Assembly: GCA_030068145.1 (NCBI GenBank)
Contig: JAPJBO010000039.1
Coordinates: 434,001-498,000 of the forward strand
Direction of reading: 5' to 3'
DNA: 64,000 bases
Source of the DNA: Diplonema papillatum
Taxonomy: Eukaryota > Euglenozoa > Diplonemea > Diplonemida > Diplonemidae
Each line of letters starts with the position of its first letter. Position 1 is the first letter of the stretch. The notes beneath the pieces were generated by a model, which was given only the letters and a program-made list of their open reading frames with translations, had not been told where the DNA came from and did no database searches. A program made the position numbers and the translations under genes. This document shows, piece after piece, positions 13,501 to 61,604 of this stretch.

Positions 13501-16229
13501 AACAACACCAGCTCCGATGCCGCGTCGGGGTTCCCGACCACGTGGCAGGCGAACACATCGCCCACCTCGGCGTAGCAGTCGTTGCCCAAGAACGGGTATC
13601 CCGGCCGGTTGGCGAGCGCGATGACCCTGAAGTCCTGGTGGACCCGGCGGAACGGTCCGCCCGCCGCGTACAGGTGCGAGCGCGCGGTCACGAACCGGCG
13701 GCCGTCGGCGAGGAGGATCTCGCCGTCCTCGAGCAGCCCCTTCAGCACGCAGATCACCTCCGGGGCGGCCTTGTCCATCTCGTCGATGACGAGCGCGCGG
13801 CCGTTTTCCATCGCGCGGACCAGCGGCGAGTCCTCCCACACCACCACGCCTTCTTTCAAAGAAGGCTGCAGCGTGAGCTGCGAGACCGTCGAGTCGCGGT
13901 GGAGCTGGATGTACTCACGCTCCCACGCAAGCAGCTGCAGGACCCGGTCGCAAAGCTTGTTCTTCCCGACCCCTTGGTTCCCGATGAGCAGCAGGTGCTC
14001 GCCCAGGGCGAGGTCCTTCAGCATCGACTGCATCACCTTCAGCTGCGACTGGATGTCGACGAAGTGGATGTCCGGGACCAACTCCGGCCGCGCCGGCGTC
14101 TTCCTCGCTACGCGGACGGAACCGACGGCGACGCTGTTCGCGTCGAGCATCACTTCCAGCTTTCCGGCGTCCTTTCGTGCTTCGAAGACGGGCAGTCCGG
14201 CTTCCTTCATCAGGTCGAAAACGATGGTGCGCTGGTCCAAGGGCAGAAGCTCCGCGAGAACCGAGCTCGACACGCACTCGAAAAGCTCGCGCGGCGTGTC
14301 GTGCTCGCAGACCCTCCGCGCGATGCGGAGCAGCTGCCGCAGGCTGAGCGGCGGGATCTGCGCTTGGACGGCGGACGGCCGCCCGCCTTCGGTCAGCTGC
14401 GACGCACGCGACGCAGTCGCGCTGGCGAACTTCAGCAGCGGCTCGAAGAACCGAGCCCGCGGCATCAGCGAGTGCAGGTCGGCCGGGTGGACGAGCAGCG
14501 GCGAGACGTGGTGGAAGTCGAACATGTGCTGCACCTCGGTGGCCAGCCAGCCCGCGCCGCCGGCGCCGCGCGCCGGCGGCACGCCGAGGGCGACCACGCG
14601 GAAGCTGGGGTGGATCCGCCGGATCTTCCTCCGCTCGAGCCCACCGGCAGGGGTTGCCTTGGCGAGCGCGTCGTACCGCGCAGCGGGGAGGTAGACGGTC
14701 CCGTCGAAGAGGGCGAGCTCCCGGTCCTCCAGCAGCCGGCACAGCGCGTTGAAGGTGCCAGGGGACAGGCGGTGGAGTCCGTCGAGCAGGGCGAGGTTGC
14801 CCGTCTCCGCTGCCGAGACGAGCGGCGTGATCTGCCACGTCGTCTCCCCCTTCGGTCCGGTCGTCCGCTTCTGCAGCAGGTCGCGCGCGCTCATGTCGGC
14901 GTACAGGGACATCGTGTCCGCCGGCGCGTACCCGAACGCCGCGGCGAACGCCCGGGCAACCGCGCTCTTGCCCTCGCCCTTGCCGCCCACGACGCAGGCG
15001 TCGCGGCCGGCGACGTGGCTCTGCGCCAAGCCGGCGAGCGCGTGCTGCTGCGCGGGGGTCAGCGTGGACGCCGCCGCGAGCGTGCCAGCGGCCTTGCCGA
15101 CGTGGCACGGATACGCCCTGCTGCCCGCGGGCGCGTCTCCCGCCGCCTTCGACACGGTGCACAGCTCGACCGAGCTGGCGACACCCGGCGTGGCCTGCGG
15201 GGCGGTGAGTATGTGCGAGCTCTCCTGCGTTGGGATGACGAATCGCTTGCTCTTGTCGAGTCCGAGGACCGACAGGGTTTCGAGCAGGACGGTCATTGCG
15301 TCGTGTGACGCGATGAGGTACGTCCACGGATACGCCCTCCACAGCGCCGACCAGAAGTCGAGCGACGGGAAAAGCTGCAGCTGGCGGAGGCACGACAGCA
15401 GCGCTGTGTACGACGGGGGCGGCGCCTTGGTGGCGAGCAGCTTCGGGGCCCCCGGCCGCACCGAGAGCTCGGACAAGGCGGCCGCGAAGGCGGCGAGCTT
15501 CTCGACGTAGGGGGCCTGGTCGTCTGCGGCTTCGACGGACCGCGCCGCGGCAACGAATTCGCGCATCGGCACGCCGGAGACAACGCAGCTTTGGAACCGC
15601 GACCGCAAGGGGGGGTCCAGCGGCTGGCCGAAGTACGGCGGGCAGGGGACGCCGAGTGCGAACACACGGAAGTCCTCGTGCACGCGCAGGATGCCTTTCG
15701 CTTCGAGGTCTTGCTTCGTGTGCGAGCCGTCGGCGACGAGCGCGTCGAAGCGCTGGGGGGCCATCAGGAACCGGCCGTCTTCGAGGGACATTTCCCTGTT
15801 TTCCAGCAGGTTGTTGATGATGGGCAGCACGTTCCGCTCGCAGTTCTCGAGCCCTTCGAGCACTAGAACGCGGCCGGACAGGGCGGCTTTGACGGCCGGC
15901 AGGTCGGTGAACACGACGCTCCCGCCTTCTCGGATCTCCTTCCGCTGCTTCAAATCCGACTCCGTCGTGTCCCGCGTCAGCGGCACGTACTCGACCCCCC
16001 GCCCGGCCAAGCTGCAGTACTTCATCGCGATCCAGCGGCGCAGGGGGCCGTAGCCGCCGATCAAGTAGACGTCTTGCCGCATGCCGTCCTTCTTCCGCAG
16101 CCACGCCACAAGCTCATCCGCCCACCGGTTCTCGACGAGCGGCGACGACGGAAGCGTCGGCACGGCGCTCTCGTCGTGGGGCTGCCGCCGTTGCAGAAGG
16201 TGCGTCTGCAGGGTCGACAGACGCGACAT
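10575..16229 (-). CDS. VWA8-type AAA+ protein with C-terminal VWA domain
   Basis: A single 1884-aa exon, close to the usual length of von Willebrand factor A domain-containing protein 8 (about 1900 aa). The open frame extends upstream to 16334, but only from a GTG. The first ATG (16229) starts a basic MSRLSTLQTHLLQRR segment resembling a mitochondrial presequence. There are three dynein/midasin-like AAA+ modules: a degenerate P-loop near 56-65, GGKGEGKS at 415-422, and GNQGVGKNK at 750-758 with Walker B VIDEMDKA (814-821). A Gly/Ser/Glu-rich linker (about 1493-1532) precedes a VWA domain with an intact MIDAS DVSAS motif (1700-1704). The last residues are ASKL, so the protein ends in a canonical type 1 peroxisomal signal. 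VWA8 is known mainly as a mitochondrial ATPase, and whether this one goes to mitochondria, peroxisomes or both is open. Confidence 0.93.
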   Translation of the reverse strand: MSRLSTLQTHLLQRRQPHDESAVPTLPSSPLVENRWADELVAWLRKKDGMRQDVYLIGGYGPLRRWIAMKYCSLAGRGVEYVPLTRDTTESDLKQRKEIREGGSVVFTDLPAVKAALSGRVLVLEGLENCERNVLPIINNLLENREMSLEDGRFLMAPQRFDALVADGSHTKQDLEAKGILRVHEDFRVFALGVPCPPYFGQPLDPPLRSRFQSCVVSGVPMREFVAAARSVEAADDQAPYVEKLAAFAAALSELSVRPGAPKLLATKAPPPSYTALLSCLRQLQLFPSLDFWSALWRAYPWTYLIASHDAMTVLLETLSVLGLDKSKRFVIPTQESSHILTAPQATPGVASSVELCTVSKAAGDAPAGSRAYPCHVGKAAGTLAAASTLTPAQQHALAGLAQSHVAGRDACVVGGKGEGKSAVARAFAAAFGYAPADTMSLYADMSARDLLQKRTTGPKGETTWQITPLVSAAETGNLALLDGLHRLSPGTFNALCRLLEDRELALFDGTVYLPAARYDALAKATPAGGLERRKIRRIHPSFRVVALGVPPARGAGGAGWLATEVQHMFDFHHVSPLLVHPADLHSLMPRARFFEPLLKFASATASRASQLTEGGRPSAVQAQIPPLSLRQLLRIARRVCEHDTPRELFECVSSSVLAELLPLDQRTIVFDLMKEAGLPVFEARKDAGKLEVMLDANSVAVGSVRVARKTPARPELVPDIHFVDIQSQLKVMQSMLKDLALGEHLLLIGNQGVGKNKLCDRVLQLLAWEREYIQLHRDSTVSQLTLQPSLKEGVVVWEDSPLVRAMENGRALVIDEMDKAAPEVICVLKGLLEDGEILLADGRRFVTARSHLYAAGGPFRRVHQDFRVIALANRPGYPFLGNDCYAEVGDVFACHVVGNPDAASELVLLKAVTDGVDDDILQKVALAFGDLRGMSDRGDVSYPYSTREAVAVSKHLSTYPQDGVAAALANVVSFDAYDNAMLEVLKGVFDRHGLPFTSFSSVGALSAASGSSLSSEVPLRPIAAVIQIFYNGRGDGVPAVKRNVDVTPLSPSDSDDAAAAAVRASVKWARSQAGAKGQQRYFSEEILGWKLPEGLSAVAACSGRHSTCHLLCAPDALVSYTVSGHAISLLKLPAKVDPHCRVACIPMANLVLVLLPKSDQLVLLTADAQPKLVGVCSVPDLSKESDGCTKLLVNGLHAYAVLPTVIVDLDFSMYPSVQRLVVSTAHQLPFAVSEAFVLTDTRLQLTRRGEDTQYHFVLPPPDGRKARLIAGGSHAGYSVAGEVYAAFDDAGGADDKMKLRPPEIPRLSSMSRLLAPAKCTPTTLVARDTTAAHAVRMGPDPGIILSNFEGKDHTGFQLPDWKQDYYCYPSGAAPTDLPETPSVWLNTGECLLTGYPPNARGQVLLEVTDLRDGTARRIPLAAEPGGAMRVAKRGDAPVREPAFLLEMTNGRVVVVLGDRDVRLVEVRRGQLGKEERAWVDGGEAEKPEDADGEGKGSGTGEGSGSGSGVGEGGEGEGSGGEGGGGGGKLGEDRTPGEKAKKKEGSSTVVLDERFRLRSGNPTGDDDDGDGTANKKKQIDDELAAKVVAEAHKRVLELAQKKRVGGSDKPHLANLDASAYARLCDAVKAEVKTLRSVLEAVEAKEKERIWATHQTAGDLDDNRLVDGATGETTIFKRRAVHKPPPGAPQKKPKRLLFSFDVSASMAHFDSEDRRLARSAAVAVLIMESFASFQHKYDYSIVAHNGDSPYIEIVPFGQPPQTELDRFAVIKAIYGGTSCLTGDNTLAAAKLAVQKVVEEEADDYFVVLISDANVSQYGIDASSLSEFLFADPRVTSHVVLISAEHGALQLASALPKGTGHLVTDTAELPKVFQNLFEHSLLASKL

Positions 16230-16897
16230 TTTCTGGTGCCCTGGTCCCCCGTTCTTCCCGCTGCCAATCACACCTTGCGTGTGCCGGTTGGGTCGGTCGT
16301 GCGCACGCAGTGCCGTGCTCGGGGAAACTTTCACTAAAACTGGGGCAGATGAACCGGAACGTACTGTATTGGGACAACCCCTGGGGACGTACTATTTGGG
16401 CTTTGTCCCCCGGTTGTGCGTCTACAGGCTCAGACCCTCCGTAGCAAGACGTTGCAGTTGATGATGTCGTAGTTCCTAAGTGTCAGTTCGTTGGGCTGAG
16501 TGTTCCGCGGTGAAAACGTTGCGATTCTTTGCCGCCGAGCGAACACGTGAGGCTCTCGCGGGTCGGTCAAAGCTTGCGCCGTAAGCAAAAAGGACTAAAA
16601 AAGAGATCCGCCGTTTGGCGGTGCAAAAGACACTCCAAACAGTGCCGGAAAAAAATATTAAGCAAGGGCGTCGTCAACAGAGGAATACGGTGCGGCACGG
16701 CGGCGGACGGGAAACCCGTGAGGCCGACAGGCCCAACGGAGCCGCGCGTTGTGTAAAGTGTCCCTCCAAAGGCGTACTGTTAAACGCCGAACGTTTCTTG
16801 AGTTGCTAAGAGTTAATTACGAGGAGAGAAGCAAAACCACAGCAACTTAGAGCAACGACAGGAAGCTTGCAACGAGATGCCTTCCACATCGCACGCA

Positions 16898-20500: not shown

Positions 20501-21551
20501 CGACATTTTCTATCGAGTTGGCAGGCGGCTCAATTCAAAAGAAGAAGGCTCTTGAGATAGAGGTTGGTAGTTTCATGTTTTGACAGAACACCGATTATCG
20601 GTCAAAGTCGACACAAGCGCCGAAGTATTTCCGAAGATATTTTGATGTAAATCTGTTCTCGGCTATCAAAACTCTTTGAAACGGTAGCAGACCTGCCTTC
20701 GCCATTTCGTTGATGGCCACGAGGCCCGAGTAGCAGGATATAAGGTTGTCGATCCTGGCTGAGAAGATGAACTCGTCGTAGAGGCCACCGACGCAGGCTG
20801 GTTGAGTGTCGTACAGGTAAAGCTCGAAGTCGGTGAGGTTTGCGGGGGTCAGCTTGCGGTCGCCGCAGGCGGCGGCGATAGCGCGCAGCAGATCGCCGTG
20901 GTGCTTCTCCTTCGGCTTGTCCTTTTCCCCGTCCTTCTTCGGCTCCTCCGGGCTCATCAAGGTGGACATGATCTCCGAGCACAGCATCGGCTTCAGGTGC
21001 GTTTCCTTGTTGTACTTGAAGCCGTCAGTGCCGCGCTCAGTAAGGTGGATGGCAAGGTTAGGAATGCGCATGATCGGCTTTTTGAGGTCGACGAGGCACG
21101 AGCCGAGGGTTCCGGCATCGTTGTACAGCACGCGCCCGGCCAGCGAGATGTCACGGTCGAACCACGTGTGCCAGAGGCCGCCGCCGTAGGTCTGCACGCC
21201 GACTTGTTTGTAGCCCTGTCCCTTGTCGGCGGACTTCGGCTTGAGCAGGAAGCAAGGGCTGTCCGTGTGCGCGCCGATCACCTTGTACCCGGCGCGGCCT
21301 TGGTTCTTCGAGAACTTCCCTCCGACGATGAACGCGATGATCGAGCTCTGGTTCCTCGTGACGAAGTACTTGCCGTTGTCCGCGACGTTGTCCCACTTCT
21401 CGGTCTCCTTCAGCTGTGTAAACCCGTTGCTCAAAAGCTGCTTCTTGCACGTCTCCACCGCGTGGAACGGCGTCGGCGACGCATTCAGAAACTGGCAGCA
21501 CTCGGCTGCTATCTTCTGGCTGGTCTTGCGAAGGTCCGCGGTGAGCGCCAT
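17566..21551 (-). CDS. DNPEP: Aspartyl aminopeptidase (M18), four exons
   Basis: Exons 21551-20693, 20278-19901, 18255-18110 and 17649-17566 join in phases 1, 1 and 0 to give 488 aa, matching the M18 family length. Donors are GTCTGC, GTGTGTGC and GTTTGCC; acceptors end CGGCAG, CTCCAG and ACACAG. The enzyme removes N-terminal Asp/Glu from peptides, usually as a cytosolic dodecamer. All metal and catalytic positions are visible: AHTDSP (His), SARIDNL (Asp), DHEEVGS (Glu-Glu), SVDGVHGVHPNY (Asp) and SMHSVRE (His). An alternative start 12 bases upstream (MHRP) is only a few bases from a C-rich tract and TTAG. A Lys/Glu-rich insert (about residues 210-225) looks like a surface loop. Intron 2 (1.65 kb) carries a tRNA-like element and GC-rich tandem repeats. 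Confidence 0.93.
18391..18464 (+). ncRNA. tRNA-like Pol III element (pseudo-tRNA or SINE head)
   Basis: A Pol III A-box-like TGGCAGAGTGG (396-406 of this kilobase) and a perfect B-box GGTTCGAACCC are spaced as in tRNA genes. ACGGGTG (18391-18397) can pair with CGCCCGT (18449-18455) as an acceptor-like stem with one wobble, and TTTTT follows at 18460. The T arm is shifted by about three bases and no convincing anticodon arm forms, so a functional tRNA is unlikely. It lies antisense within intron 2 of the aminopeptidase gene. Confidence 0.45.
18640..18800 (+). repeat. GC-rich tandem repeat with G-runs
   Basis: Two and a half imperfect copies of an approximately 60-bp unit, each with ACGAGCGCCAAAC or ACCAGCGCCAAAC, a CTCGGTGGGTC block and a GGGGTGTCCCCCCCGGG block. 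The C- and G-runs can pair within a unit. It lies in aminopeptidase intron 2. Confidence 0.75.
18875..18975 (+). repeat. Short tandem repeat of CCCGAACTTAGCTTCG type
   Basis: Five to six imperfect 16-20 bp units such as CCCGAACTTAGCTTCG and CCCGAACTTTACTG, immediately after the GC-rich tandem block in the same intron. Confidence 0.75.
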
Positions 21552-21563
21552 TGGACGGTGCAT

Positions 21564-23713
21564 GTGCTAAGGGGGGGGGGGGCTCTCTGCTTTGTTTTCC
21601 TTTCTTCAAACTCTTTTGGAGGGGGGTTATGCGTGTTGCAGCTTGCCGACCCAGAGGCGCTTAAACTGCAAGAAGCACCTTTTTCGGCAAGACTGGTTGA
21701 AACCGATGGCCTTCTCTTCGGGTACCGGCATCACGACGCAAGTACTATGAAATGTTCGATCCCCACATCGCTGGAAGGCTGTTAGTGTGGGAATCTAGGG
21801 CATTTAGGAGCAGCATAAACCTGCTGCTGACTCGCGCCTCCTGTCAGTCATAGTGGTGTGTCTCAGTGTACGGATCCATTCCCGCGGGTCCGCGATTTGC
21901 CCTACTTTTGCACGGTGGCTGTGAACAGCGCCCACCACTCGATTCTTGGAAATTGCGCGAAAATGTGGCCACCTGAGGACGCGTTCTTGCACGATCTTAG
22001 TTAGCCGAGGGTCCAAGTCGGGTTAAGTCTGCCGCAGCAGGTTACACTTTGTCTCCTGCGGTATGTGGAACGGAAACAACAACAACGACCAGTATTTGTA
22101 GCCCAAGTGCAGCTAGCCCACAGCCGAGTGTCGGCGCTGCAAACATGGCGAGGGCAGGGGAAGTAGGAGTGGATCTTTCCCATCGCGGGTTAGAACTGAA
22201 TTATAACGGAGTGTCGGCGTGTGTAAAGCCATGTTCGCCAGGATGCGCCGATGTGTCCGCTACACGTGTAAGACCTGCGGCCAGCAACTCAATTTCTTCA
22301 CCGAAATGTCGGAGATACAACGGCCATGTCGCAGGAGATGTGACGCCTGGGCGATAGGGTCAGTCTGCGAACAGTTCTGCATGTCACACAGCCGTTGTAT
22401 TCCACACACGTCGAGCCGAAGAACTGAACAACAACCCGTCGTTTGTTCAACCTTCGCCACAGTTGTATGCGAGTCTAGGTTTCTGCCTTTCGCTAAAACG
22501 GTTGCAGATTGCTCGGTCTTCTGGTGTCGCTTTCCTCTTGACGAATGCTCTCAGCATGACGGCAGCTTTGCTCGGGGCAAAAATGTGCTGGAGGTGCGAT
22601 GCCTGGGCCAATGGCAAGACTCCAGCTGCACGACGAAGGGGCGAGATCAGTCGCGGCGCCGACGGTAGAGGTCACGCGGGGGCGATGTCGGTTGTCATCA
22701 TCTCGCGGAACAACGCAGTCTTCCAGCCGGCGCATGCACGCCGCCACGGCATGTATAAGAGGCGTCCGAAGCACGTGTTCTGTGTTCGCGATGAAAGCTT
22801 AGACGATCCGGGTAGTCCAGACAACATAACCCCCAGTGAACAACTTTTACCACACATCGATTGCAGGGACGTTTCGCCCTCTTACACATAATATCATCAC
22901 TGCACGCGATGTCAGTCTTGTCAGCACGAATGATCTGGATTCCGGTCCCGGATGCACGCGACGGAGAGACGGCAATCTGGAAAAAGGGCAACCCACGTTC
23001 TTCTCACAACTGGGGGGTGCAAGTCCCTCCGCCGATTTTTTAGCGTTATTTGTGGATTAGAAGGTCGGTATTTTAAAGTCTCCGGTTGACCGTAGAGGCT
23101 TGGGTATGGCGGGGGGTTGAGAAAAGTAAAAGAGTGCGACTCGTTTCGGGTGTTGTGTCACTCCGTTGTGAAACCTTGTGAAGTCCCCTAACGCGTTTAG
23201 AGGGTGCTTGGGTTTGGGTAGGGTGTGGTCGTTCTGCTGCGGCGTGAAAAGCCAGGAAGTTTCGACGCTAATCTTCGACTCTTGATTAAGTTCACCGGGT
23301 TGCGTGCTCGTCAGGAAGATCCCGGTGCCTGGCTTTTCTTCTGGGTGGTTTCGTGTTGATCGGCGGCTGTGTGTTACGAGGCACGGATTAGGGGATGAAA
23401 AAAGGAAAAAGAAATGGGGGAGAAAAAGAAGGGGGGGAGAGGGGGAGAGGGGAAGTTGGGGTTTTGAGGGTTGTCCTCGGGGTACGGGGGGGGGGTGGTT
23501 GGAGGGTTTGAGTGACAGAGGTTACGCTTGCGCTGTTCGCATGAAGGCTCGTTGGCTCGAAGAAGTGGAAGTAGCGTTGGTTATTGTTCGATGTTATTCT
23601 TACAGTCGTAAGATGTGATAAAAAAATTTATTTTAAAAAAACCTCATTTGACTGTTTGTTGTCCTCCACAGTCGGGGTTCTCTAGCTGCACGAGGCAGCC
23701 GTGGATGATGAAA
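21564..23713. other. Intergenic spacer before the retroelement
   Basis: No supported gene. It includes a family B core near 23055-23100 (GGTATTTTAAAGTCTCCGG), a purine-rich G-tract region at about 23400-23515 and an A/T-rich block at 23616-23650 that may mark the 3' edge of the retroelement. ORFs in 22000-23000 do not resemble any family I know. Confidence 0.5.
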
Positions 23714-26700
23714 TTAAGTTCCTCGCTTACTTTGCTTATTCTTTTTCGTAGCCTTGAGCGTGTGCGATACCGCTGGGTTTCTCTTGCATTTTGAGATATG
23801 GTGGCGTAGACTTTTGAAGCGCGCTTTCCCTGCGGTCCGTCCGTCGTTGTTGCAGTATGGGCATTTGCGTTTTCCGAGGGCTTTCTGTGCCGCCTTTCGT
23901 ACTGGGCTTGTTGCTAGAGTCATCTCTTTGCAGTGAAGCATGTGTGTACGGAGGCCTTTGGCGCCTTTGAACTTGTTGCCTGCGTCCGTGGTAGTTGCTT
24001 TGCAGGCTGGGCATGCCCAAATCAGCGTTCCTTCATGCTGTGTTGTTTCTTCGGATGAGGTCTCGTCGTCTGAGGTAGGGGTGTCCCCTCGCAATTCTTC
24101 GAGCAGTTCGAGTGTTTGTGTAGGGTCTGTGTCGGTGGTGTCTTCTTTCGTGTACAGGAACATGTACGTGGCGTTGTCTGTGTACGTAGGTTCCCGGGAG
24201 TGTGAGGTGGTTTCGTTGTTGTAATGTGTCCAGTTTTGGTCTGTGAAAGGGGTGCGGTTACGTTTGTGGATGGTGTAGTGGCCGGCGTTCTCTCTTCCTG
24301 TGTGTGTTATAACGGCTTGGAGTTCGTATTTGTGTTCGTGGTCCGGAATGTTGAGGGTGGGATCAGCTGCCACCGGGGTTCGATTTTCGTTTGCGAACTC
24401 GTTCCGTCTAAGACACAGTAGTAATGTGTCTTGTGCTGCTCGGATACTGGTTTGCGTTTCTGCTGTCTTTGTCTTTTTGCACTTGTCACATCTGTAATCT
24501 TTGGGGGTGCTTTTCTTGCAGAAACTGTCCAGACATCCTTGAGCGGTGCTGGCCTGTATTGCGAGGATTGTCATGCTGTAGGGTTGATCTTCTGTTTTGA
24601 TGTAGCCGCAGTTGTTGCAATGGATTGTTGTCGTCTGTAGGTGTAATAATTCGTTGAAGGCGTCGCTGCAGTTTGGTTGGCACGTGCGGTGTTCTTCGTT
24701 TTCGTTCGCTATCGCAGCGAGTAGTTGAAGTAAGGCTTCTTCTAGGTCGTGTTGTTCTCCGTCGCCGAGGTGTGTGTCCATGTGCTCGAAGAGCCTTTGG
24801 ACGACGTTTTGGGTTTTCCTGCCGCTTATCCATTCGTTCACGTCTTGTGTGCATGGGCCTGTTTGGTGTTGTGGACAGTCGTTGTACTTGCGTATTTGAT
24901 TTGACAAGTGTGTCGCTGCTATGAGGTTTAGCGACGCTTGCAGGAAGCAAGAGTTTCTTGTCGTGTATTTGTGAAGTTGCTGTGGGTGTTTCCGCTTCGT
25001 TTTGGCTGCTACTGCTGCGGCGATGGTGATGGTTGCAACGAGGCTGGCTACTCGTTCCGTGACGGTTAATTCGGGTGTGGGTTGTGATGGAGAGTCAACG
25101 GAGGATGGTGATTCGCTCGGTAAGTGGGCCGGGAAGAAGTTGGTTGGCCTGTGTTTGCCGGCGAACTCCGGTTCGTTGATGCGTGGTTGGCGTTTTTTGT
25201 GCCGGGCTACGCAGAATCCAAGGAACGGCTTGAGCTGGCTGTGGAGTCGTGGCAGGTTGCCGAATTCCTCTGTGAGCCATGCGTTCCAGGGTGCGTATAG
25301 TACCCGTGGGTTGTGACCTCTGTCGATCATGGCATATACGCTCCTCTGTATTTCTACACGCAGGTCTTGTAGGTGGTTCGTTTGTCGGATTGCTCGTATC
25401 AGCGAGCCCTTGAAAATCCCGCTCGCTTGCGCCTTGGGAGCCGTTGTTAAATGGTGGGTATAGCGGGTCCCGTAGTTTTTCGGTTGTATTGTGAGGCGGA
25501 TGTGCGGTGCGTGGGGAGGATCCGGACGTTCGACGCGTATCCGGACTCCGAGAAATACTACGTCGTCGTGTGCTGTAGTTGTGTTTTTGTACCGCATGTT
25601 GTAAAGGTGCTGCGGTGGTGGTGTGGTCCCGAAGTTGAGGAAGTCGTCGATGAAGCGGTAGGTGTGTGCGTGTGCCTTCGCTTCTTCGATCTTTCCTTCA
25701 TCTACGAGGCTGTCTACGTATGCTTTCTCGATCCGATAGCAGAAAAGGTTTGCTATATCCGAGCTAGCATTACCGCCCATAGGTATGCCGTCGGTCTGCC
25801 TGAGTACTTGATCGCCTTGTGCTATGTAGCTGTTACCGATAATGATTGCAAGTAGTTCTTTGACTGCTTCTCTGGAGTATGCGCGCTTCGTGTCGTTCGT
25901 CTGCCGACTGAAGGTGAAGGTTTTCTTGCCTTTCTGTTTCGCTCCACGTGTTAGGTTAGGGTTGCCGTTCTGTTCTTCGAATTCGAAAGCTTCTTCGATC
26001 GCTTCGCATACTTCTTCCACTATCTTGTCCTGAGGTAGCCTTGTGTACATGTCCTCGAAGTCGTGTGTAGTTGGGATTTTGTATCGGAGGCGGGTGAGGT
26101 TCTGCTTTATGTGCAGGGTGATGTCGTCTGGTCCTTCTGTAAACCATACACGTTTGATTCCTGTACGGCGGAAGTTGAGTTCGTCTTTTCGTTTGAGGGC
26201 TTTCATCACGCTTTTCAATAGGCCTGATAGTTCGAGGTGGGCATTTGTGAGGGTTGCTTTGGGTGCCTCGCGTTTTGTGTTGCGGTGCTTTTTGTTTTTT
26301 TCTGCGGCGACACCGGCTATCCAACGGAAAGATGGTTCTGCTTTGTGTAATTTTATGGAGCCGTAGAGGTGTGGTAGTCCCTTGTGGAACGGTAGGTCGA
26401 GCTCTGCCATTATACGTTTGTGGTTGCTCTCTACTTCTGTTTTTGTGATCGTTTGTTTCTCGTATGTTTCGTTTGCGTCGAGTTGTTGTCGTAGCGCGTG
26501 TGTGTATTGGGCTTTGCAACAGTATCCAAAATCGTGCGTTGTTTTGTCTACTGGTAAGATGACCAGGTGTTGTTTAATGACAGCTAGTTCGGCTGTGGCC
26601 TTTGTATTCAATTTCTCGTCGTCTGAAGGTGGTAGAGCCGCCATTCTTCGTGATATTTCGGCTTTGAGCTCCGTTTCGAATGAGGTTGTGTCACTGCCTG

Positions 26701-29700
26701 CGGGGTAGTATGTCTGTACGTACTCCTCTATTGCCTCGTGTAGCGTTTCGGTCAGAGCGTGGTGGCTCTGGTAGCATCTGTACTTTCTGCCTCTGCTGAC
26801 GATTTCCGAAAGCCCGTTTTCTTTCGTAATTGCTGAGAGGAAGCCTATGGCGTGGCCGTTGATCGTTTTTCCGGAGTTGTATCTGTGACATGCGCAGTGC
26901 TCTGGTTTAGGGAGTGGTATGTCAGGCAGTTCCTTGCTGATCTGTGTTACGTTTTGTAGCCTAAGATAGAGTGGGGGGTTCAGTCGGAAAGAGATTTTGG
27001 TGCGCTGTAGTATCTCTTCTTTTGGGCAAGCGCGTTTAATCGCCGGTTGTTGTAGGATGTCGTGTAAACGTAGCGAGTTGATGTGTTCACTGCCGTGTGT
27101 GATTATGAGCCTTGCTGGTGCTCCGTCGTCTTTTATTACTTTGTTGAGTGTTATCTCCCCGAGTCGATCTTTTAGGCTTTTTTCGAGTGCTGTGACGGTA
27201 GGTGGCAAATTGGTGCGAGGTGCGTGTGCGATTAGCCAGTTAAGAAGCCGCTTGATCCGTGTGCGTCCCATAAGGTCGAAGTTGTAGCCGGTGAGGTCTT
27301 TGTCGCTGAGGTTTACCAGGTGGTGTAGTTGGCTCCTGATTGAGAATGCTCGTGCTTCGGTAGTGAGGTTGATCCGCAGTTTTCCGTCTTCCAACCATGC
27401 CCACTTTTCGACTTTTGGTGCGTTTTTCGTTCGTTCGTGGCGTTGATTGGAACGTTTTCTGCTTTTCCTGGGGCGTGTAGTGGCGTTTCTGATATGTCGT
27501 TGGACGTTGTATGTGGGTTGGAAGTGTGAAATCCACCAGTTCTCTCTCGGAAGTGCCTGTCTCCGGAATTCGTCGTTTGTGGCGTGCTCGTTGATTGGAA
27601 CTTTCTCGAGCGGTATCGCGTAGAGGGGAAAGTCCCGTTTCAGAAGAGCTTTGGCGATGGGTGTGTTGTTGCGGCGTTGATACCAGTGGGATTTCAGACG
27701 ATCCTCAGCGGTACCTTTGGTTTGCCCGACGTATTTGACGTTTCCGCGTTCGTCTATAAGGGCGTAGACTACTCCTTGGTCGGAGTGTGCTGGTTTGTCG
27801 GTCTGCTGGTTCTTCCATCCCTTGTGTAGCTGCTTGTGTTGTTTGGTGAAGAACACGACCTGCGCTTCTCGTCGTTTGGTGTCATACGCGGCCCAGAACT
27901 GTTTCCCGTAATTGTATTTCGCTTTAGTGCGAAAGCATGTGAGGAACGGGTTTCGCTTAAATTCTGGACGGTCTGCTTCTTTTGGGTCGATGGCGTTCTG
28001 TTTGAGCTTGTACTTCAAGTGTGTGTCGTTGAGGTGGGTGACTGGTCGGGGGTTCTCTTGTGTTGGTGTGCTGTGTTGTGTGGTCCGTACGTCTTGTGGT
28101 GGTTTGAATGTGAGGTTTTGGTGTAGTTTGTTCGGTTGTGATGTATAAGGTTGGTGTGAAGGGAGTACGAGTGTATTCAGCGTTGGTGGTGGATGTCGGA
28201 GACCGTATTGTGTGGGTGGGAGTAGGAATGCCGTAGTGGGTCGTGTGTTAGTTAGTTTCGGAGGTGTGTGGAGGGTTGGGGGAGGTATAGTTCGGAGTGT
28301 GATGGTCGGCACTGCTGGAGGGAGTGCGGATTGTTGTGGGTAGCGTCGATGAATGTCGGGTGTTGGGTAGTCGATGTGTGGTTGGTGTCGTGGCTTGTAC
28401 GTTTCGTTGAGGATGGAGGTGGGACGTCTCATCGTGGCAGGGGTGGGAGACCCGTAGTACGGCATGTGTGGCCGTGGGATGTTTGGGATGCGTTCGGTGT
28501 ATGAGACGTCGTGTTGGAAGTCGGCTGGGAAGTTACTACTTGTGGGGGTGGGCGCTACGTACGTTTCGTATGTTTCAACGATGCCCGGTGCTGCGTGCTG
28601 CGCTGAGTGCGGGTGTGTGATTTCGAAGTTGGGAGTAAAAGGTCGTGGGGAGTAATTGTCTTGTGAGTTGAGCAGTGGGGGTTGATCTGTGCAAGGCGAT
28701 ATGCTGATGACCCTTTGACAGGCGTGCGGTACGTGCGGTTGTAGTTTATATGTTTTGTCGGTACCTGGAGTTAAATGCCGCGTCCTGCTGGGGGGTGTGG
28801 TTTTGTGGTTTGGGACGTAGGGGTGTGGGTGGTAAGTGTCGTAAGAGCTGTGGGATGAGGTCTGGTCTAAGTTGGGTGAAATGCTGGTGTCTTGTGCGTG
28901 GAAGGGTGGTAAGTACGGTCGCGGTTTGTAAGTTCTTTCGGAGTTCGTGAAAGAGTGTTGGTCCGAGTGGGCGTAGTTTGAAACATATGGTTGTGGGAAG
29001 TATGTGTCGCAGGAGCTTGTGGTTGAGGGTTGCTTCGTGTAGGGTGAGATGCGGATGGTTTCTGCGCTGCTAGTTGGTAGATATGGTTGTGGTTCGTATG
29101 CTCTGTCGGTGTTCGTAGACATGTGTCGGGCTGTGCGTGCGGGTGCAGTCTTGCGGTTTGGAAGATATGGTCGTGGGAGGTACGTGTCGCTGGAGTTGAT
29201 GCTTGAACGTTGGACCGTGTCGGGTGAGATGCTGATGGCTTGTGCGCGGTTAGTTGGTAGTGGTTGTGGTTCGTATGTTCTGTCGGTGTTCGTTGACGAT
29301 TGTCGGGTCGTGCGCACGGGTGTAGTCTCGTGGTTTGAAAGGTATGGCCGTGGGAGGTACGTGTCACTGGAGTTGGTGCTTGAACGTTTGTCCGTGTTGG
29401 GTGAAATGCTGATGGCTTGTGTGCGGCTAGTTAGTAGGTATGGTTGTGGTTCGTATGTCCTGTCGGTGTTCGTAGACGAGTGTCGGGTCGTGTGCGCGGG
29501 AGAAGTCTCGTGGTTTGAAGAATATGGTCGTTGGAGGTACGTGTCGTTGGAGTTTATGCTTGAACGTCGGTTCGTGTTGGGTGAGATGTTAATGAGGTTA
29601 GGTGGTTGGTACGGTTGTGGTTCGTATGTTTCGTCGGTGCTCGTCGAGACGTGTGGCGTGACGAGAGCAGGTGTAGTTACGTATCTTGGTATGTAAGGTT

Positions 29701-29995
29701 GTGAGTGGTATGTATCGTGGGTGTTGATGTAAGGTTGTGGTTCGTAAGTTTCGTCGGTGTCCAGGGTGGAGTCTGCTGATGGAGGTGTGTCGAAGTACAG
29801 TGAACGTAGAGCCTGTGCGTAGTTACTGGCGGGCGTGTTCGTTGTAGCGTATCGCTGGTTATGTGGTGCGGGAGCTGTGCGTCTTTTCGAGAACGAGCTT
29901 TTCGTATTGCTGCGGGTGCTCTTCGTAGGCGTAGGGCTAGTAGGCGCTGCCTCTGTGAGTCGTGCGGTTGGTGGTTCGCGCTGTTGGGTGCTCAT
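23714..29995 (-). CDS. Retroelement polyprotein: GIY-YIG, reverse transcriptase, USP protease, zinc fingers
   Basis: An intact frame of more than 2,170 codons. The first ATG is at 29995, but coding-like basic sequence continues in frame up to a stop at 30347-30349 with only a TTG at 30247, so the true start may use splicing, frameshifting or a non-AUG codon. Numbering from that TTG: Tyr/Pro/Thr-rich repeats (166-565); GIY-YIG-like nuclease (about 824-915, VVY...YVG); reverse transcriptase (about 1235-1680) with motif A DFEDMYTRLP (Asp1396), motif B GIPMGGNASSD (1487) and motif C FIDDF (1532); a C19 ubiquitin-specific protease (about 1762-2033) with Cys box RNSCFLQASLNL (Cys1767), CxxC pairs at 1877/1880 and 1920/1923, and His box GHYT (His1990); then two C2HC fingers (2079-2106, 2129-2154). 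The RT resembles Penelope-like elements. A GIY-YIG upstream of the RT matches the permuted layout reported for Chlamys-type elements. The USP domain is the unexpected part. Confidence 0.88.
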   Translation of the reverse strand: MSTQQREPPTARLTEAAPTSPTPTKSTRSNTKSSFSKRRTAPAPHNQRYATTNTPASNYAQALRSLYFDTPPSADSTLDTDETYEPQPYINTHDTYHSQPYIPRYVTTPALVTPHVSTSTDETYEPQPYQPPNLINISPNTNRRSSINSNDTYLQRPYSSNHETSPAHTTRHSSTNTDRTYEPQPYLLTSRTQAISISPNTDKRSSTNSSDTYLPRPYLSNHETTPVRTTRQSSTNTDRTYEPQPLPTNRAQAISISPDTVQRSSINSSDTYLPRPYLPNRKTAPARTARHMSTNTDRAYEPQPYLPTSSAETIRISPYTKQPSTTSSCDTYFPQPYVSNYAHSDQHSFTNSERTYKPRPYLPPFHAQDTSISPNLDQTSSHSSYDTYHPHPYVPNHKTTPPSRTRHLTPGTDKTYKLQPHVPHACQRVISISPCTDQPPLLNSQDNYSPRPFTPNFEITHPHSAQHAAPGIVETYETYVAPTPTSSNFPADFQHDVSYTERIPNIPRPHMPYYGSPTPATMRRPTSILNETYKPRHQPHIDYPTPDIHRRYPQQSALPPAVPTITLRTIPPPTLHTPPKLTNTRPTTAFLLPPTQYGLRHPPPTLNTLVLPSHQPYTSQPNKLHQNLTFKPPQDVRTTQHSTPTQENPRPVTHLNDTHLKYKLKQNAIDPKEADRPEFKRNPFLTCFRTKAKYNYGKQFWAAYDTKRREAQVVFFTKQHKQLHKGWKNQQTDKPAHSDQGVVYALIDERGNVKYVGQTKGTAEDRLKSHWYQRRNNTPIAKALLKRDFPLYAIPLEKVPINEHATNDEFRRQALPRENWWISHFQPTYNVQRHIRNATTRPRKSRKRSNQRHERTKNAPKVEKWAWLEDGKLRINLTTEARAFSIRSQLHHLVNLSDKDLTGYNFDLMGRTRIKRLLNWLIAHAPRTNLPPTVTALEKSLKDRLGEITLNKVIKDDGAPARLIITHGSEHINSLRLHDILQQPAIKRACPKEEILQRTKISFRLNPPLYLRLQNVTQISKELPDIPLPKPEHCACHRYNSGKTINGHAIGFLSAITKENGLSEIVSRGRKYRCYQSHHALTETLHEAIEEYVQTYYPAGSDTTSFETELKAEISRRMAALPPSDDEKLNTKATAELAVIKQHLVILPVDKTTHDFGYCCKAQYTHALRQQLDANETYEKQTITKTEVESNHKRIMAELDLPFHKGLPHLYGSIKLHKAEPSFRWIAGVAAEKNKKHRNTKREAPKATLTNAHLELSGLLKSVMKALKRKDELNFRRTGIKRVWFTEGPDDITLHIKQNLTRLRYKIPTTHDFEDMYTRLPQDKIVEEVCEAIEEAFEFEEQNGNPNLTRGAKQKGKKTFTFSRQTNDTKRAYSREAVKELLAIIIGNSYIAQGDQVLRQTDGIPMGGNASSDIANLFCYRIEKAYVDSLVDEGKIEEAKAHAHTYRFIDDFLNFGTTPPPQHLYNMRYKNTTTAHDDVVFLGVRIRVERPDPPHAPHIRLTIQPKNYGTRYTHHLTTAPKAQASGIFKGSLIRAIRQTNHLQDLRVEIQRSVYAMIDRGHNPRVLYAPWNAWLTEEFGNLPRLHSQLKPFLGFCVARHKKRQPRINEPEFAGKHRPTNFFPAHLPSESPSSVDSPSQPTPELTVTERVASLVATITIAAAVAAKTKRKHPQQLHKYTTRNSCFLQASLNLIAATHLSNQIRKYNDCPQHQTGPCTQDVNEWISGRKTQNVVQRLFEHMDTHLGDGEQHDLEEALLQLLAAIANENEEHRTCQPNCSDAFNELLHLQTTTIHCNNCGYIKTEDQPYSMTILAIQASTAQGCLDSFCKKSTPKDYRCDKCKKTKTAETQTSIRAAQDTLLLCLRRNEFANENRTPVAADPTLNIPDHEHKYELQAVITHTGRENAGHYTIHKRNRTPFTDQNWTHYNNETTSHSREPTYTDNATYMFLYTKEDTTDTDPTQTLELLEELRGDTPTSDDETSSEETTQHEGTLIWACPACKATTTDAGNKFKGAKGLRTHMLHCKEMTLATSPVRKAAQKALGKRKCPYCNNDGRTAGKARFKSLRHHISKCKRNPAVSHTLKATKKNKQSKRGT
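28555..29752 (-). repeat. Coding tandem repeats in the retroelement N-terminus
   Basis: Roughly seven imperfect copies of an approximately 59-61-codon unit. Each has TYEPQPYLP, then an AISISPNTD-like block, then SSDTYLPRPYLPNHETTP. The products are rich in Tyr, Pro, Thr and Ser with regularly spaced PQPY/PRPY motifs and are probably disordered. Copies diverge towards the C-terminal end (28.6-28.9 kb). Confidence 0.85.
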
Positions 29996-31147
29996 GCGTT
30001 GGATAAGTGCTTCGTGGTATGTGGGTAGCGGCGAGTCGTCGTTGGTGCGTCGTGGTGAGCACGGAGTAGGTACGGTATGTGCCGCTTTTCGGTTTTCAGC
30101 ATGGTTGTAGCGGGTGTTTATCCGTTCTGTTTCTTTGCGCTTGGACTTGTGCGCGCGTCGTGCTGTTCTAACTGTTGCGTGCGTTGCTGCGTCTGCGAGG
30201 ATCTCCCGTACGTTTAGGAGGGTTGGAGTTATTTTGCGTTTTGACAACTGTTTACTTCTATTGGATTGATTGGTGTTTTTAAAGGTACGCCGCGCACCGA
30301 GTGTTACTTTGTTGACTTTAGTGGTACAAGTACCGAGGTCCTGTCCCTAAATAGGGTGACGCCATACAGGTATTGGCTTTGGAGCAGCGTATGCTGTGGA
30401 TGGCTTTTCTCTCCGAAAGATCGTTGATGGTTGTACCGGGCCATCCGGGAACCCCATCTTCGATCACCTAGTTTTCTATGCCCAAGGAGTCGGCGGTTCC
30501 TTGGCAGCGAGGAGGTCGTAGTTGTAACGCTACGAGGCGAGATGAACGGCTGTCCTGCGGTTTTAATGTTGCGCTTGGACCCTGACCCCGGGGTCACGTA
30601 TGCATGCTACGTTCCCCTATTGTGGTCTAACGGACTTTTCGGACGGTGTGTGGGGTTGGGAGTTCAGGTCGCTGCGTGATGCGTTGTCTGCGGGCTTTCG
30701 CTGGATGTGGGGAGGTTGTACGTTCTGTGGTATGCTGCGGTCTACTGCGTATAGTTAAGCTTTGTCGGTCACGCTGCTGTGGAGATTGGCTGTCTTCTTA
30801 CTTAGGACGTAGGTCTTTGATAGCTGCTGTGTGTCGGAATATGTTGGCTGTTGTTAGAAGGCCTGTGTGAAAAGTGAACGTGGACCGTGTACTTCCTCGA
30901 GAGATGCGTGGTTGTAGGAGCTTGGACCCCTTTGAAGGCGGTGGAAATTACGGAAAGTGTGGCCTCGACCATGACGGTCAGCCTTCTCCCACGGCGGCTC
31001 CTTCATCATATGACCGAGTTTGAAGGTGCGGGATATATAGATCGCTGGGTCCGTCATGCATAGCTGGTGCATCCCTATGCTTGTATTTTATTTTGGCTGT
31101 ACCCTCAAATTCCGTGTTTCGACCGGGGGTTCGACCTGGGAGGAGTT

Positions 31148-31852
31148 TTATTGATTGTTGGTACACGGGGAGAGGATGTGAGGGCAGATGTTGTTTACAT
31201 GACAAGGTGACGTGGTGAAAGGGAAGATGGGTGTTGCGGCGGCATTGTACAAGAGGTGTTTGGTACTGCTGGAGGTATGTATGCAGGTATTGAAGTGCAA
31301 GGGGTCCAGCAAGTGTGTAACTCCTCTGAAGATGCGCTGTGGAAACTGCCGATGGTTAGGTTGTGGCATTAGTTGTGAGGTTTGCGGATTCGTTCTGGTT
31401 AACTTCGTAGATCTATCGACGGTAGAAGAAGGTGGTTTAACGTGGGCGGAAGCGTCTCCGTTGCGCTGCGTGGATTGTTGATCCGGTCGATAGGCGGGGT
31501 TGGTGTCGGAGTTTTTTTCTTTTTCCTTTTGGTGGAAGGCGACGGTCAAACGGTGGGCGTTGGGAAGGTTGTTCAACACTTCCGGGTTTCGCTGGTTTTG
31601 CCTTCGGGTCAGAGTAATGATTGTGGTTATGACTCGCTTGACCGTATATTGGGAGTGCTGCTGGCTAAGTTTTTCCTTGAATTTTGTGTGAAGAGTCTTC
31701 ACTGAAGACCACCCGCGTTCGGTAGGTAAAGCGGGGGCCGGGCGCTCCAGTTCGGGAAAAGGGCAGCTAAAGAAAAGGGGTCCTCCCTTCCTGGAAGCCT
31801 TAGGGTCCACGGGAGGACGAAACTCATTTGCCGGTCTTTGATTCCATTTCAT
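31148..31852 (-). CDS. Unknown 234-aa ORF upstream of the retroelement polyprotein
   Basis: An open frame from an ATG at 31852, same strand as the polyprotein and about 0.8 kb upstream of it. The product is rich in Asn, Gln, Thr, His, Pro and Lys, close to the unusual composition of the polyprotein and unlike the host genes. No domain is recognised. It could be an ORF1 of the retroelement or the 5' part of the polyprotein, or it could be open by chance because A/C-rich sequence has few stop codons. Its ATG overlaps the proposed stop codon of the O-fucosyltransferase-like gene. Confidence 0.35.
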   Translation of the reverse strand: MKWNQRPANEFRPPVDPKASRKGGPLFFSCPFPELERPAPALPTERGWSSVKTLHTKFKEKLSQQHSQYTVKRVITTIITLTRRQNQRNPEVLNNLPNAHRLTVAFHQKEKEKNSDTNPAYRPDQQSTQRNGDASAHVKPPSSTVDRSTKLTRTNPQTSQLMPQPNHRQFPQRIFRGVTHLLDPLHFNTCIHTSSSTKHLLYNAAATPIFPFTTSPCHVNNICPHILSPCTNNQ

Positions 31853-34800
31853 GCGTCGTCCACGAGAAGAGGATCACTACGAAGAGACTGATATGTGTAA
31901 GGCAAGAACGCTAACCCAAGAGGCAAGAACGCTGATCCCAAGAGTGAGTCGATCACAAAATGAAACGGGGATCGCACTTCGCTTAGTGACATAGCTAACT
32001 AATCTGGCATGACTTGCCTCGATAATCTCTAATGGCTCCCATGGTTTGAGACTGGTATTCATAAGGCAAGAACGCTAATCCCAAGAGTGAGTCAATCACG
32101 AAATGAAACGGGGATCGCGCTTCGCTCTTGTGACACAGTGGAATAGAAGAAGAAAGCACCTACCTGGGAAACGGAAGACGCGGAGTTCCCGATGAAAATG
32201 TATCCGGATCGCATCAGGAAGTAGTCGGTCGCCAGACCCTTCAGGCCTCCGACTTCCTGTGTGCCGTAGAGGCCGTCATACATGATAGCCCCGCGAACGA
32301 CGAGCTCCTGCTAGGTGTGGTTTGCTTGACTGCGCACGTACGAATGATTGCAACAATTTCGAGCCGGTGCGGAAGAACTAAAACAGGAAATGAGAGTGTC
32401 CTAAAAAATGACAAACTGCAAACAGCCACACACCGCTCTCTAACACGAATTAATACGCTCACCCATTCACCATACTTGATGATGAGATGAAGCACGACAA
32501 AAGAACCACCCTTCTCGACAATGGTCACGCGGAGAGACTCTAAGAGGGCTCTCTAGCGTTTATTCTCGAGCGAACTTTCGCCCTTAAAACGCCTGCCGAG
32601 ATGCAGCGCGGCATGGAACCCAAGCGACAAGCACGAACCCAGCCTCAAAAGCTGAAGTTAAGAGGGTCTGCGATAAGCGGGTGTGCTGCACCTAAACGCA
32701 TGAAAGTGTGACACCCGCTTTTTGGCAGCTTCTAGTCCCAGCTTCTGAAGCTGGACGCCACCGTATACGGGAGAGAATTCGTGCTTACCTCTGTGCGTTC
32801 ATGAAAGGCGGGCATACCTGCTCTGCCGTTTTATTCTGGTGATCGGATGCCAAGAACGTCGGCAGCGGAAACTTATCGGGATTCGACCCAGCGCTTTCGA
32901 CGGAAGATCCAAGGCTGTGGACATGTACCATTAAATTGAACAAAAAAAACAAAACGGGCGAGTTTGCGCCCAAAAGAATAACGAAAACGATCCCAAGGCG
33001 AGCCAATCTAAGAGCCCAAGTGCTTCTTCAATCTGTTCAAGCAGGCAACGCAGGTGGAGACCGCCGCTGAGCGGGGGATGCTGAAGGAACTCAAAGCCCA
33101 GGACGGGGAACCCAGTACTGCAAGTCCACGTGCTTCATTCTAAACAGCCATGCAGCTGGTGCCGTTTAAGATAGGAAGGCAAACTCAACGCAAATGCAGC
33201 GCCGCCCGAAAACTAAGATTTTGCCCTGACCAAGTACAGGTGAAGAAAAGCACATGCCTCGCACGCAACGTCTTCGAAATGTAGGCGCTGTTTACCTTGC
33301 ATTGTTCCCGTAGCTCGTCGAGCTGTGTGTGGTGGGTCTTCCTTCAATCGAAGCATCATCGGTGGTAATCGCGAGAGCCATAAAACCAGTCAGTTCACGC
33401 CGTGGTCGCTTGCGCCTAATGCAATAATCGTGCCCGCGGCCACACTTTGAGTGGCGCATTGCACCTTGCGTGTGTTGAGCACTGTCATGCAAGCATGCCA
33501 GGGGAAGACATGGTGGTGGTCCTTTTAGAGTGAAAGTTCGCTTGAAACTCCGAGGTTTTAAAGTCTCCGGGTGACCTTCGTCAATATGGGAAGACATCCT
33601 TTGTGCTCTGAGTAAGAGTAGTGGTTACGCGAGATAAAAGAATCGTTGTTTTTGTGTTTACGACGATCCCGTTTGGTGTCTTTCGACCTTTTGTTTGTTT
33701 TGTGAGGTTCAGCTACATGTGGTCGGGCGGGCAGAATAGGAAGCTTTTCTGTATCGGGCTACACTTTAACTCACGATGCCGATTCTGCTGCCTTTCCGCT
33801 GGGCTGTTGGAACCAGACCCACTCGCATATATGTCGTTGTTTTTTTCACCGCAGTTTGCTCTTTTCCGCAGACTACCCCAAGGTTAGAGCTTAACCGGGT
33901 TCTTTAGATGGGCTGTGCGGTCCTGTTCCGGTGAACACAGGCTTTTTGGTTTCACTGTGTTTCTCGGGGGAAGATGTTAGTTTAGTGTTAGGACAGCTCA
34001 TGCATGTTTGATGCAGTCTTCTTCGCGGGAAAGCCGAGTTTTATTTTAGTGTGCAAGTTCGCTTAGGGATCCGGGGGTTTATAGTCTTTTAGTATTTTAC
34101 TTTGACTTTTTATTTCTCTGTCGGCAACTTCTTTCTTTACCATGGTGATTGTGCCGTAGAGTAGTTCTTCTTTCTCTAGGAAATGTGGTACCCCCGAGTG
34201 TCTACACGGTCCTGACAGGGCCCATATAACTTGCCACTGCGGCCAAAGAAAGTCCAGTACACTTATAAATTGTAACCCCCGCCGTTTCACAAACCCAAAA
34301 CTACGCAATACTACGGAAAACTACGCAATACGGGGTTTTCGGGGATACCAAAATGTCTTAGTTAGTAGTATCGTAGTTGGGGAGGGATCACCGCAGCTGT
34401 CTTCAAAGAGGCGGTCGAGGCAGTATGGTCCACGAAGTATGCAAGCACTTGCCGCGTGGTTCATAGTGGCAGAATCGGGGTCGACTTCAAAGACGTCAGA
34501 CCACGGTGGGATGAGCGACACGCTCCGTCGGAAAGACGTTGCATACCAACGGCGCGTCGATCGCGAATGTGTGGGCGAACTCTGTGTCAATTTCGGCGTT
34601 GCAGGTGCCCTCGCGGTACCGGAGGTGGACGGACAAGTAGCGCGGGTTCGGGCCGTACGTCTTCGACAGGAAGGACGCCACCTCGTCGCCGACGTCCTTG
34701 GCCGGACGAAGCAGGCCGAAGGCCTGCGCCAGCAGCGGCAGGCCCGGGCGGAGGTAGAAGGCAAGCTGCCCGGAGACGTTGATGACCGTCGCGGCCGCCC

Positions 34801-46760: not shown

Positions 46761-47012
46761 CGCGAAGCCTCCTTCAAGGTATAGTATGTTTGTGTGCGTA
46801 TCGTATCTGCTGTAGTGGCAGTACGTGTACTTGTGCGTGTATCTTTGTTGCCTATTTACGACTATTCGACTTGTTTTAGCGCGCGCTCTTATTTCCTATG
46901 TGCTTTGCCATTTGTAGCGGTATTTTTTAGCAACACGCGCCAAAGGCGCGAAGGAAAAAGAAATGCCACTCACCCTTGGACATAGATGTACGGAGGCCAT
47001 CTTTGAACATTT

Positions 47013-54722: not shown

Positions 54723-54739
54723 CTGGGCAGCAAACCCCC

Positions 54740-54800
54740 TTCCCTAACAATCTTGCGAGTTTGCCCTACAATGTATTGCGGAGGCGAAAAAGACGCGCTC
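54740..54800 (-). repeat. Degraded family A fragment
   Basis: AACAATCTTGCGAGTTTGCC followed by TACAATGTATTGCGGAGGC matches the 3' end of family A in inverted orientation. AACAAGTGGGAGAAC near 54937 may be the other end. Confidence 0.5.
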
Positions 54801-61389: not shown

Positions 61390-61604
61390 CTGATTTGGAA
61401 GAATTGCTACGAAACTGAACGCAACCCCTCGATATGTAGGAGAAGGAGAGGTGTGATCAAGTAGCGCCAAACTATCGTGTCAGCCAGTCACAGAATACAT
61501 TGAGAAAAACACAAATGGGGGCCGTATTCGTGCGGCAAAGACGGAACTCGGAAGAAAAGACAGGTTTTGATTAGTTGTGCATGCTAGTTAATCGTACTGA
61601 AAAG

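Follow-up and report, generated by a model that had tools for sequence, protein, structure and literature searches.

A Penelope-like retroelement family of Diplonema papillatum whose single protein carries a predicted ubiquitin-specific protease domain

In Penelope-like elements (PLEs) the GIY-YIG domain cuts DNA and the reverse transcriptase (RT) performs reverse transcription, and tandem or partial-tandem copies forming pseudo-long terminal repeats (pseudo-LTRs) have been described for this group (PMC11167929, PMC3846280). Protease domains of the OTU or Ulp1 kind are reported in Ginger1 DNA transposons, Helitrons/Helentrons, Mutator, NeSL and Utopia elements (PMC2836005, PMC4640811, PMC6431247), and one Trichomonas protein is mentioned in passing as combining peptidase C19 with transposase_11 (PMC2836005, PMC6431247). 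The present analysis concerns a stretch of 64,000 nucleotides of Diplonema papillatum (contig JAPJBO010000039.1, positions 434,001 to 498,000 of assembly GCA_030068145.1), designated here as the window, which holds an element combining a GIY-YIG-like nuclease, a Penelope-type RT and a ubiquitin-specific protease (USP, peptidase C19). Diplonema papillatum belongs to the diplonemids within Euglenozoa. The organism is a marine flagellate (PMC10161547). The element is probably an autonomous PLE whose single protein carries the USP deubiquitinase as a long-standing part, by which the protein or its ribonucleoprotein particle (RNP) would be protected.

The protein is encoded on the minus strand by one frame of 2210 codons without a stop, with the domain order GIY-YIG, RT, USP and zinc-finger-like motifs; residue numbers here follow the stop-to-stop numbering of this frame. 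The first-pass annotation, which had described an uninterrupted frame joining the nuclease, the RT and a complete USP, was borne out on this point, and the Pfam comparison it had proposed returned both the UCH domain (PF00443; E 8.2e-14, profile positions 6-254 of 254, 52.2 bits with the cut-off at 23.9) and the GIY-YIG domain (PF01541; E 2e-5, positions 2-78 of 78, 25.3 bits with the cut-off at 22.6) as significant matches. When the window protein was compared with solved structures by phmmer, USP15 was matched (1.8e-6), while the profile built from ten element USPs matched USP36 in PDB (4e-22) with the Cys, Q/D, zinc Cys and His boxes aligned.

The Cys box NSCFLQASLN (1798-1807) contains the catalytic Cys1800 and is followed by the Q/D box EQHDLEEALLQLL at 1864-1876 with Gln1865, by the zinc pairs CNNC (1910-1913) and CDKC (1953-1956), both of the CxxC form in the window (Cys 1910/1913/1953/1956), by the His box GHY with His2023, and by NWTHYNNE (2038-2045) with Asn2043. 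The Cys box, Q-box, two CxxC pairs, GHY and WTHYNN noticed at first pass are all in place, and the catalytic cysteine, numbered there 1767, is residue 1800. In the alignment of the ten element USPs (A3) 20 columns are invariant, including the catalytic Cys and His, the Q and D of the box, the four zinc Cys and a Trp; the third catalytic residue is N in the window and D in the other nine rows, and the second zinc pair has the form CxC rather than CxxC in C312 and in the A- and B-type rows. USPs remove ubiquitin, and the domain is a predicted active deubiquitinase. Outside the domain, families of the window type have a short (L/I/M)RGD motif after the USP, seen in the window (24083-24103) and in L027, L028, L033, L034 and L035 and surrounded by a variable linker.

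Since RVT_1 of Pfam stayed below its cut-off in the 2210-residue frame (E 0.11), the RT was identified by motifs (VDK..HDFG, YGSIKLHK, DFEDMYTRLP, GIPMGGNAS and FIDD) and by alignment with relatives. An RT profile matched no RT chain among the solved structures of PDB, where the USP matches obtained in one such search arose because full-length rows of alignment A5 still contained USP parts, and NCBIfam gave nothing for the window protein and weak group II RT matches to some relatives. The Penelope-type RT proposed at first pass thus retains the backing of its motifs, of the relatives' alignment and of the pseudo-LTR-like junctions described below, and lacks that of RVT_1. The Arg and Glu positions of GIY-YIG align in relatives, C-terminal zinc-finger-like motifs resembling those of the window are also found in the proteins P0002, P0010 and P0012, and Pfam at E up to 1 listed no integrase, RNase H or apurinic endonuclease in the frame. 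The N-terminal part is built of repeat units such as TYEPQPY and DTYLPRPY and is perhaps a structural or RNA-binding region; the first Met of the frame is residue 118, where the protein may start.

A search of the source assembly (271 Mb, 2910 contigs) with the window USP resulted in 123 scored matches among 875 candidates, and that with the window RT in 67 of 702, all match counts being lower bounds. By identity the USP matches comprise 72 at 92% or more (some partial), 5 at 58-88% and 46 at 39-44%, with stops inside the match in 7 of the 123, and the RT matches fall into groups of 98-100, 91, 78-83 and 62-63%. The first-pass annotation had asked whether all other copies lack the USP, and the opposite was found, given the 72 of 123 matches at the highest identity. 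The 2210-codon frame is present at 13 genomic places among those scored, the window included, so that its openness is more than chance; the RT search is in agreement with these USP results. Such near-identical copies would mean recent activity, with the caution on assembly duplicates that is given below.

Other families of the same genome share this organization. Among 16 stretches fetched for UCH matches 13 (L009-L021) are of the element type, the window USP being matched in all 13 and the window RT in long frames of 11 (not in L013 and L016). Two further full architectures, designated A (1562 codons; L009, L010) and B (1585 codons; L011, L012), have RTs about 33% identical to the window RT over some 725 residues. 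All four loci chosen by RT alone (C52, C77, C167, C18) show a USP match directly after the RT, the frame of C18 being broken, and together with those chosen by USP match (C312, C187, C13, C9) this makes 8 of 8. In the other families aligned the RT is 37-83% identical to that of the window and the USP comes after it; the window, A, B, C187 and C77 show the GIY-YIG region in full and C18 just its end, and in the stretches fetched for C312, C9 and C13 none is seen. An additional Diplonema family with RT and USP is represented by P0018 and P0019 (UCH 3.6e-16 for P0018, precomputed for P0019), and P0002 (contig C253), whose family has another copy on contig C56, is 100% identical to the GenBank protein P0004 of Diplonema papillatum over the residues searched (150-1462).

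The homolog search based on the window protein alone scored 7996 candidates and none at E 0.001; relatives were recovered by searches with family A and alignment A2. The closest in organization is P0012 (5.7-kb contig, 1635 residues), which has a GIY-YIG-like region, RT, UCH (7.2e-7) and a C-terminal finger in the order seen in the window, its GIY-YIG-like region resting on alignment as Pfam did not list GIY-YIG; its host could be another diplonemid. In P0027 and P0028 from JGI metagenomes the RT is followed by a Josephin deubiquitinase (Pfam E 1.2e-10 and 4.4e-6, the latter one bit above the cut-off), an identity given by Pfam alone, as comparison with solved structures yielded no ataxin-3-type match. 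For P0029 Pfam listed no Josephin, and hhalign gave 56% for Josephin vs 27% for the USP control. PF02099 gave no match in the Diplonema genome, where the controls of that search gave none either.

The RT tree, which covered the element RTs and the relatives named here and was rooted on P0031 and P0032, unites all ten USP bearers with P0010 and P0029 in one group (support 95/94), while P0027, P0028 and, weakly, P0030 fall outside; P0012, P0010, P0027, P0028, P0029, P0030 and P0032 have long branches and an unsure place. A smaller tree without P0029 and P0030 placed P0010 in the same way. An RT clade of USP bearers only was rejected (p-AU 2e-7), as P0010 and P0029 fall among them, and a clade of P0027, P0028 and P0029 was rejected as well (p-AU 0.01). 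In the USP tree, where branches are also long, the ten element USPs are parted from eight Diplonema USPs taken as host genes with a support of 51/89, which leaves a single origin neither shown nor rejected. The simplest reading of these trees would be one USP acquisition with later loss or replacement.

The ends of the copy in the window are sharp, lie at about 23036 and 31670, and are the same in the copies on C168 and C1, which are 99.7-100% identical to it over the pieces compared. The span 23714..30346 given to the element at first pass is thus a real open frame, and the mobile unit on the minus strand is wider (23036-31670). Compared with the full family 5' end, seen upstream in C168, the window copy is 309 bp short. 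This 309-bp stretch has 19 genomic matches, of which 12 are whole, five begin inside (at 137, 169, 232, 241 and 259) and two hold the first part only (1-293 and 1-144, 94-95% identity); the five inner starts would represent the graded 5' truncation expected from target-primed reverse transcription. At every one of ten full 5' ends examined (nine fetched from among the 12, and C168, with C2750 and C326 left out) a second copy with like orientation ends directly before it with its 3' end, always at the same junction, the upstream piece reaching the limit of the sequence read in nine and measuring 324 bp in C640. A similar arrangement was found in family A (L009), with a terminal direct repeat of 408 bp at 97.6% identity; the window copy has no pseudo-LTR of its own. 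The Penelope assignment, putative by motifs, is strengthened by these pseudo-LTR-like tandem junctions, and, as judged from its sequence, the window element is a 5'-truncated member of a young multicopy PLE family. A hammerhead ribozyme is frequent in the PLE pseudo-LTR and not obligatory, and was not taken as defining; Rfam at E up to 5 found none in window 22800-32500, L030, L009 and L011.

Features of the window that belong to the element or flank its insertion
Feature	Position in window	Strand	Remark
Element copy	23036..31670 (8635 bp)	minus	Ends common with the C168 and C1 copies
3' untranslated region (UTR)	23036..23713	minus	Last ~400 bp found head to tail upstream of the next copy in other copies
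Open frame, 2210 codons without stop	23714..30346	minus	First Met at nt 29995 (residue 118)
Tyr/Pro-rich tandem repeats	28624..29594	minus	N-terminal part of protein; repeat detection and translation
GIY-YIG endonuclease domain, residues 858-947	27506..27775	minus	Pfam PF01541; N-terminal to RT
RT region, residues 1261-1720	25187..26566	minus	Motifs, alignments A5 and A6, genome RT search
USP / peptidase C19 domain, residues 1796-2065	24152..24961	minus	Pfam PF00443
Two C-terminal zinc-finger-like motifs, residues 2112-2139 and 2162-2187	23786..24013	minus	Read by eye
AAA_5 giant ATPase, host gene	10575-16391	minus	Flanks insertion
M18 aminopeptidase, host gene	20595-21566	minus	Flanks insertion
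MatE transporter, host gene	53013-54743	minus	Flanks insertion
Roc-COR protein, host gene	59492-61456	minus	Flanks insertion

The giant ATPase among the flanking genes is presumably midasin-like. Just beyond the 5' end of the element, outside the stretch common to copies, the window contains direct repeats of 63 and 34 nt (31884-32126), and further on the plus strand a fragment of another retroelement with an RNase H-like domain (47007-48386; PF17917, 4e-8).

In all 21 family pairs having both regions the USP identity is below that of the RT (sequences of C18 and B being partial), for example 58 vs 78% for A-B, 71 vs 86% for C187-C77 and 42 vs 83% for the window and C312, and between distant families (the window, C187, C77, C312, C18 and C9 types against A or B) the USPs are weakly similar (17-27%). 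The ratio of nonsynonymous to synonymous substitution rates (dN/dS) is below 1 wherever computable and higher for the USP than for the RT wherever both can be computed, the USP values being about 0.15-0.19 for C187-C77 (NG86, LWL85) and about 0.09-0.11 for C187-C13. Together with the kept catalytic residues these ratios support selection on the USP, which agrees with the selection on the unbroken frame and its catalytic residues that had been presumed at first pass. That the USP diverges rapidly while its active site stays fixed suggests that it may face changing host partners. Recent swapping of USPs between families, considered for the window and C312 because of their identities, is not supported, as synonymous sites are near saturation in both regions.

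The proposed course of events is that the GIY-YIG domain would nick the target and the RT would use target-primed reverse transcription to copy the element RNA. The USP, joined in cis to the same protein, would strip ubiquitin either from the protein or RNP of the element itself or from host proteins where insertion takes place, and the RNP could thereby evade ubiquitin-dependent removal for the time needed to insert. As a predicted role, protection from ubiquitin-dependent turnover is consistent with the arrangement described. The presence of two deubiquitinase families, USP and Josephin, after related RTs favours ubiquitin removal over a passenger role. A wider proposal, possible rather than probable, is that of a PLE lineage with built-in deubiquitination, where a fixed slot after the RT is occupied by USP (Diplonema, P0012) or by Josephin (P0027, P0028), the domain would counter ubiquitin-dependent host control of the RNP, and its surface would evolve under conflict.

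Several observations weigh against a long-standing protective USP. At 52 bits the UCH score in Pfam is modest, and A3 consists of ten rows that were picked for readability and represent about seven families. The fast divergence of the USP could reflect weaker constraint; for C312-C18, where C18 is a broken copy, the USP dN/dS reaches about 0.3-0.4, and dS is saturated in most pairs, which makes dN/dS rough and only its direction safe. P0010 has RT and finger with no USP detected, and its RT is sister to A and B (100/99), so that the USP is dispensable or was lost in at least one relative, or was omitted from the gene model. P0031 and P0032, with RT and a GIY-YIG match just below the cut-off, have no detected deubiquitinase, and such a domain is therefore not needed for retrotransposition in general. 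Finally, the assembly may contain artificially duplicated repeats according to the genome paper (PMC10161547), and for this reason the copy counts and the ten identical junctions may not all represent separate insertions.

Among the other explanations the first is a role in chromatin or repair, according to which the USP would deubiquitinate host histones, PCNA or repair factors at the nick and aid target-primed synthesis and second-strand repair instead of protecting the element protein. The joining of the USP to nuclease and RT agrees with it, as does the proposal in the Ginger transposon paper that repair factors are the targets of ubiquitin-pathway domains carried by transposons (PMC2836005); however, it predicts a better conserved substrate surface than the one seen, with USP identity below RT identity in every pair, and we regard it as unlikely.

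Quite unlikely is polyprotein processing, in which the USP would serve as the element's own protease and release nuclease, RT and other parts from the 2210-residue product. Processing by an own protease is common in retroelements and viruses and the USP does sit between the RT and the C-terminal zinc-finger-like part, but USPs cleave after the ubiquitin C-terminus, while Pfam lists no ubiquitin-like domain in the frame and LRGG is absent from it, the only near match being a single LRGD at 2085. The missing ubiquitin-like domain and LRGG make such cutting less likely, and this role, suggested at first pass, found no positive evidence; moreover, a canonical PLE studied in vitro uses GIY-YIG and RT in one protein (PMC11167929).

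It is very unlikely that the domain is no longer an enzyme and has become a ubiquitin-binding or structural part: the weak similarity between distant families, the long branches and the His standing at the usual Gln of the box in P0018 would be in line with this, but families with little else in common retain Cys, His, Asp/Asn and the four zinc Cys. A chance fusion, where one copy landed beside a host USP gene, has a negligible probability and is refuted, for although the genome also contains USP loci that have no neighbouring RT match and were regarded as host genes, the USP is carried at 72 near-identical places and by other families, and the element ends lie outside it.

Thus, protection of the element's protein or RNP by its own USP is the explanation preferred here, and the USP probably contributes to the survival of these elements in the cell. 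With the USP, and in relatives the Josephin domain, a new member is added to the protease kinds seen in transposons, and the finding of different deubiquitinase families in the same slot makes the older suggestion of a ubiquitin pathway in transposition testable; gene replacement has been reported for Diplonema papillatum (PMC10161547). The open literature yielded no description of a PLE with a USP or Josephin, most subscription papers being outside this scope, and the main text of the Diplonema genome paper does not mention Penelope or ubiquitin (PMC10161547). The first-pass statement that no PLE with a USP is known therefore holds within these sources, and was incomplete in its account of earlier work, as OTU/Ulp1 cases and a C19 domain beside a transposase are already in print.

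The findings also concern gene annotation. The annotation gives the element proteins P0004, P0005 and P0019 the name ubiquitin carboxyl-terminal hydrolase 16 or 26, and element proteins named in this way would inflate the counts of host deubiquitinases in Diplonema. Element pieces are also contained in the GenBank gene models P0009, P0011, P0022, P0023 and P0024, which bear the names ribosomal RNA-processing protein 12, magnesium/proton exchanger, dynein intermediate chain 2, UNC93-like and STIP1-like; these models may be annotation chimeras in which the copy lies in an intron, or the copies may have been exonised.

In comparison with known systems, the order of domains recalls the Chlamys-type PLEs, which reportedly (Craig et al. 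2021) have an N-terminal GIY-YIG and occur in green algae and protists; going by this description, they share with the window element the endonuclease-then-RT order (858-947 before 1261-1720) and protist hosts, and to our knowledge they carry no USP. An OTU-type protease is present in the non-LTR retroelement Dualen/RandI. The canonical PLEs of the Penelope/Poseidon clade, as far as described in the sources cited, resemble the window element in having GIY-YIG and RT in one open reading frame, pseudo-LTR tandems and 5' truncation, and differ in that their GIY-YIG is C-terminal to the RT and that of the window element N-terminal; the latter adds the USP and C-terminal zinc-finger-like motifs and has no Rfam hammerhead match in the stretches searched (PMC11167929, PMC3846280). 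In Ginger1 and Helentrons, too, the mobility enzyme is fused with a ubiquitin/SUMO protease, which in Ginger1 is C-terminal, but these are DNA transposons, the Trichomonas C19 case concerns a DNA transposase, and OTU and Ulp1 are other protease families (PMC2836005, PMC6431247). NeSL and Utopia are retroelements with an Ulp1-like cysteine protease and in this respect are similar, while being non-LTR elements with other endonucleases and with a protease that is N-terminal and not a USP (PMC4640811). The catalytic residues, the Q/D box and the zinc Cys of the cellular USPs (USP36, USP15, USP12, USP46) align with those of the element USP, which, unlike them, is part of a retroelement protein.

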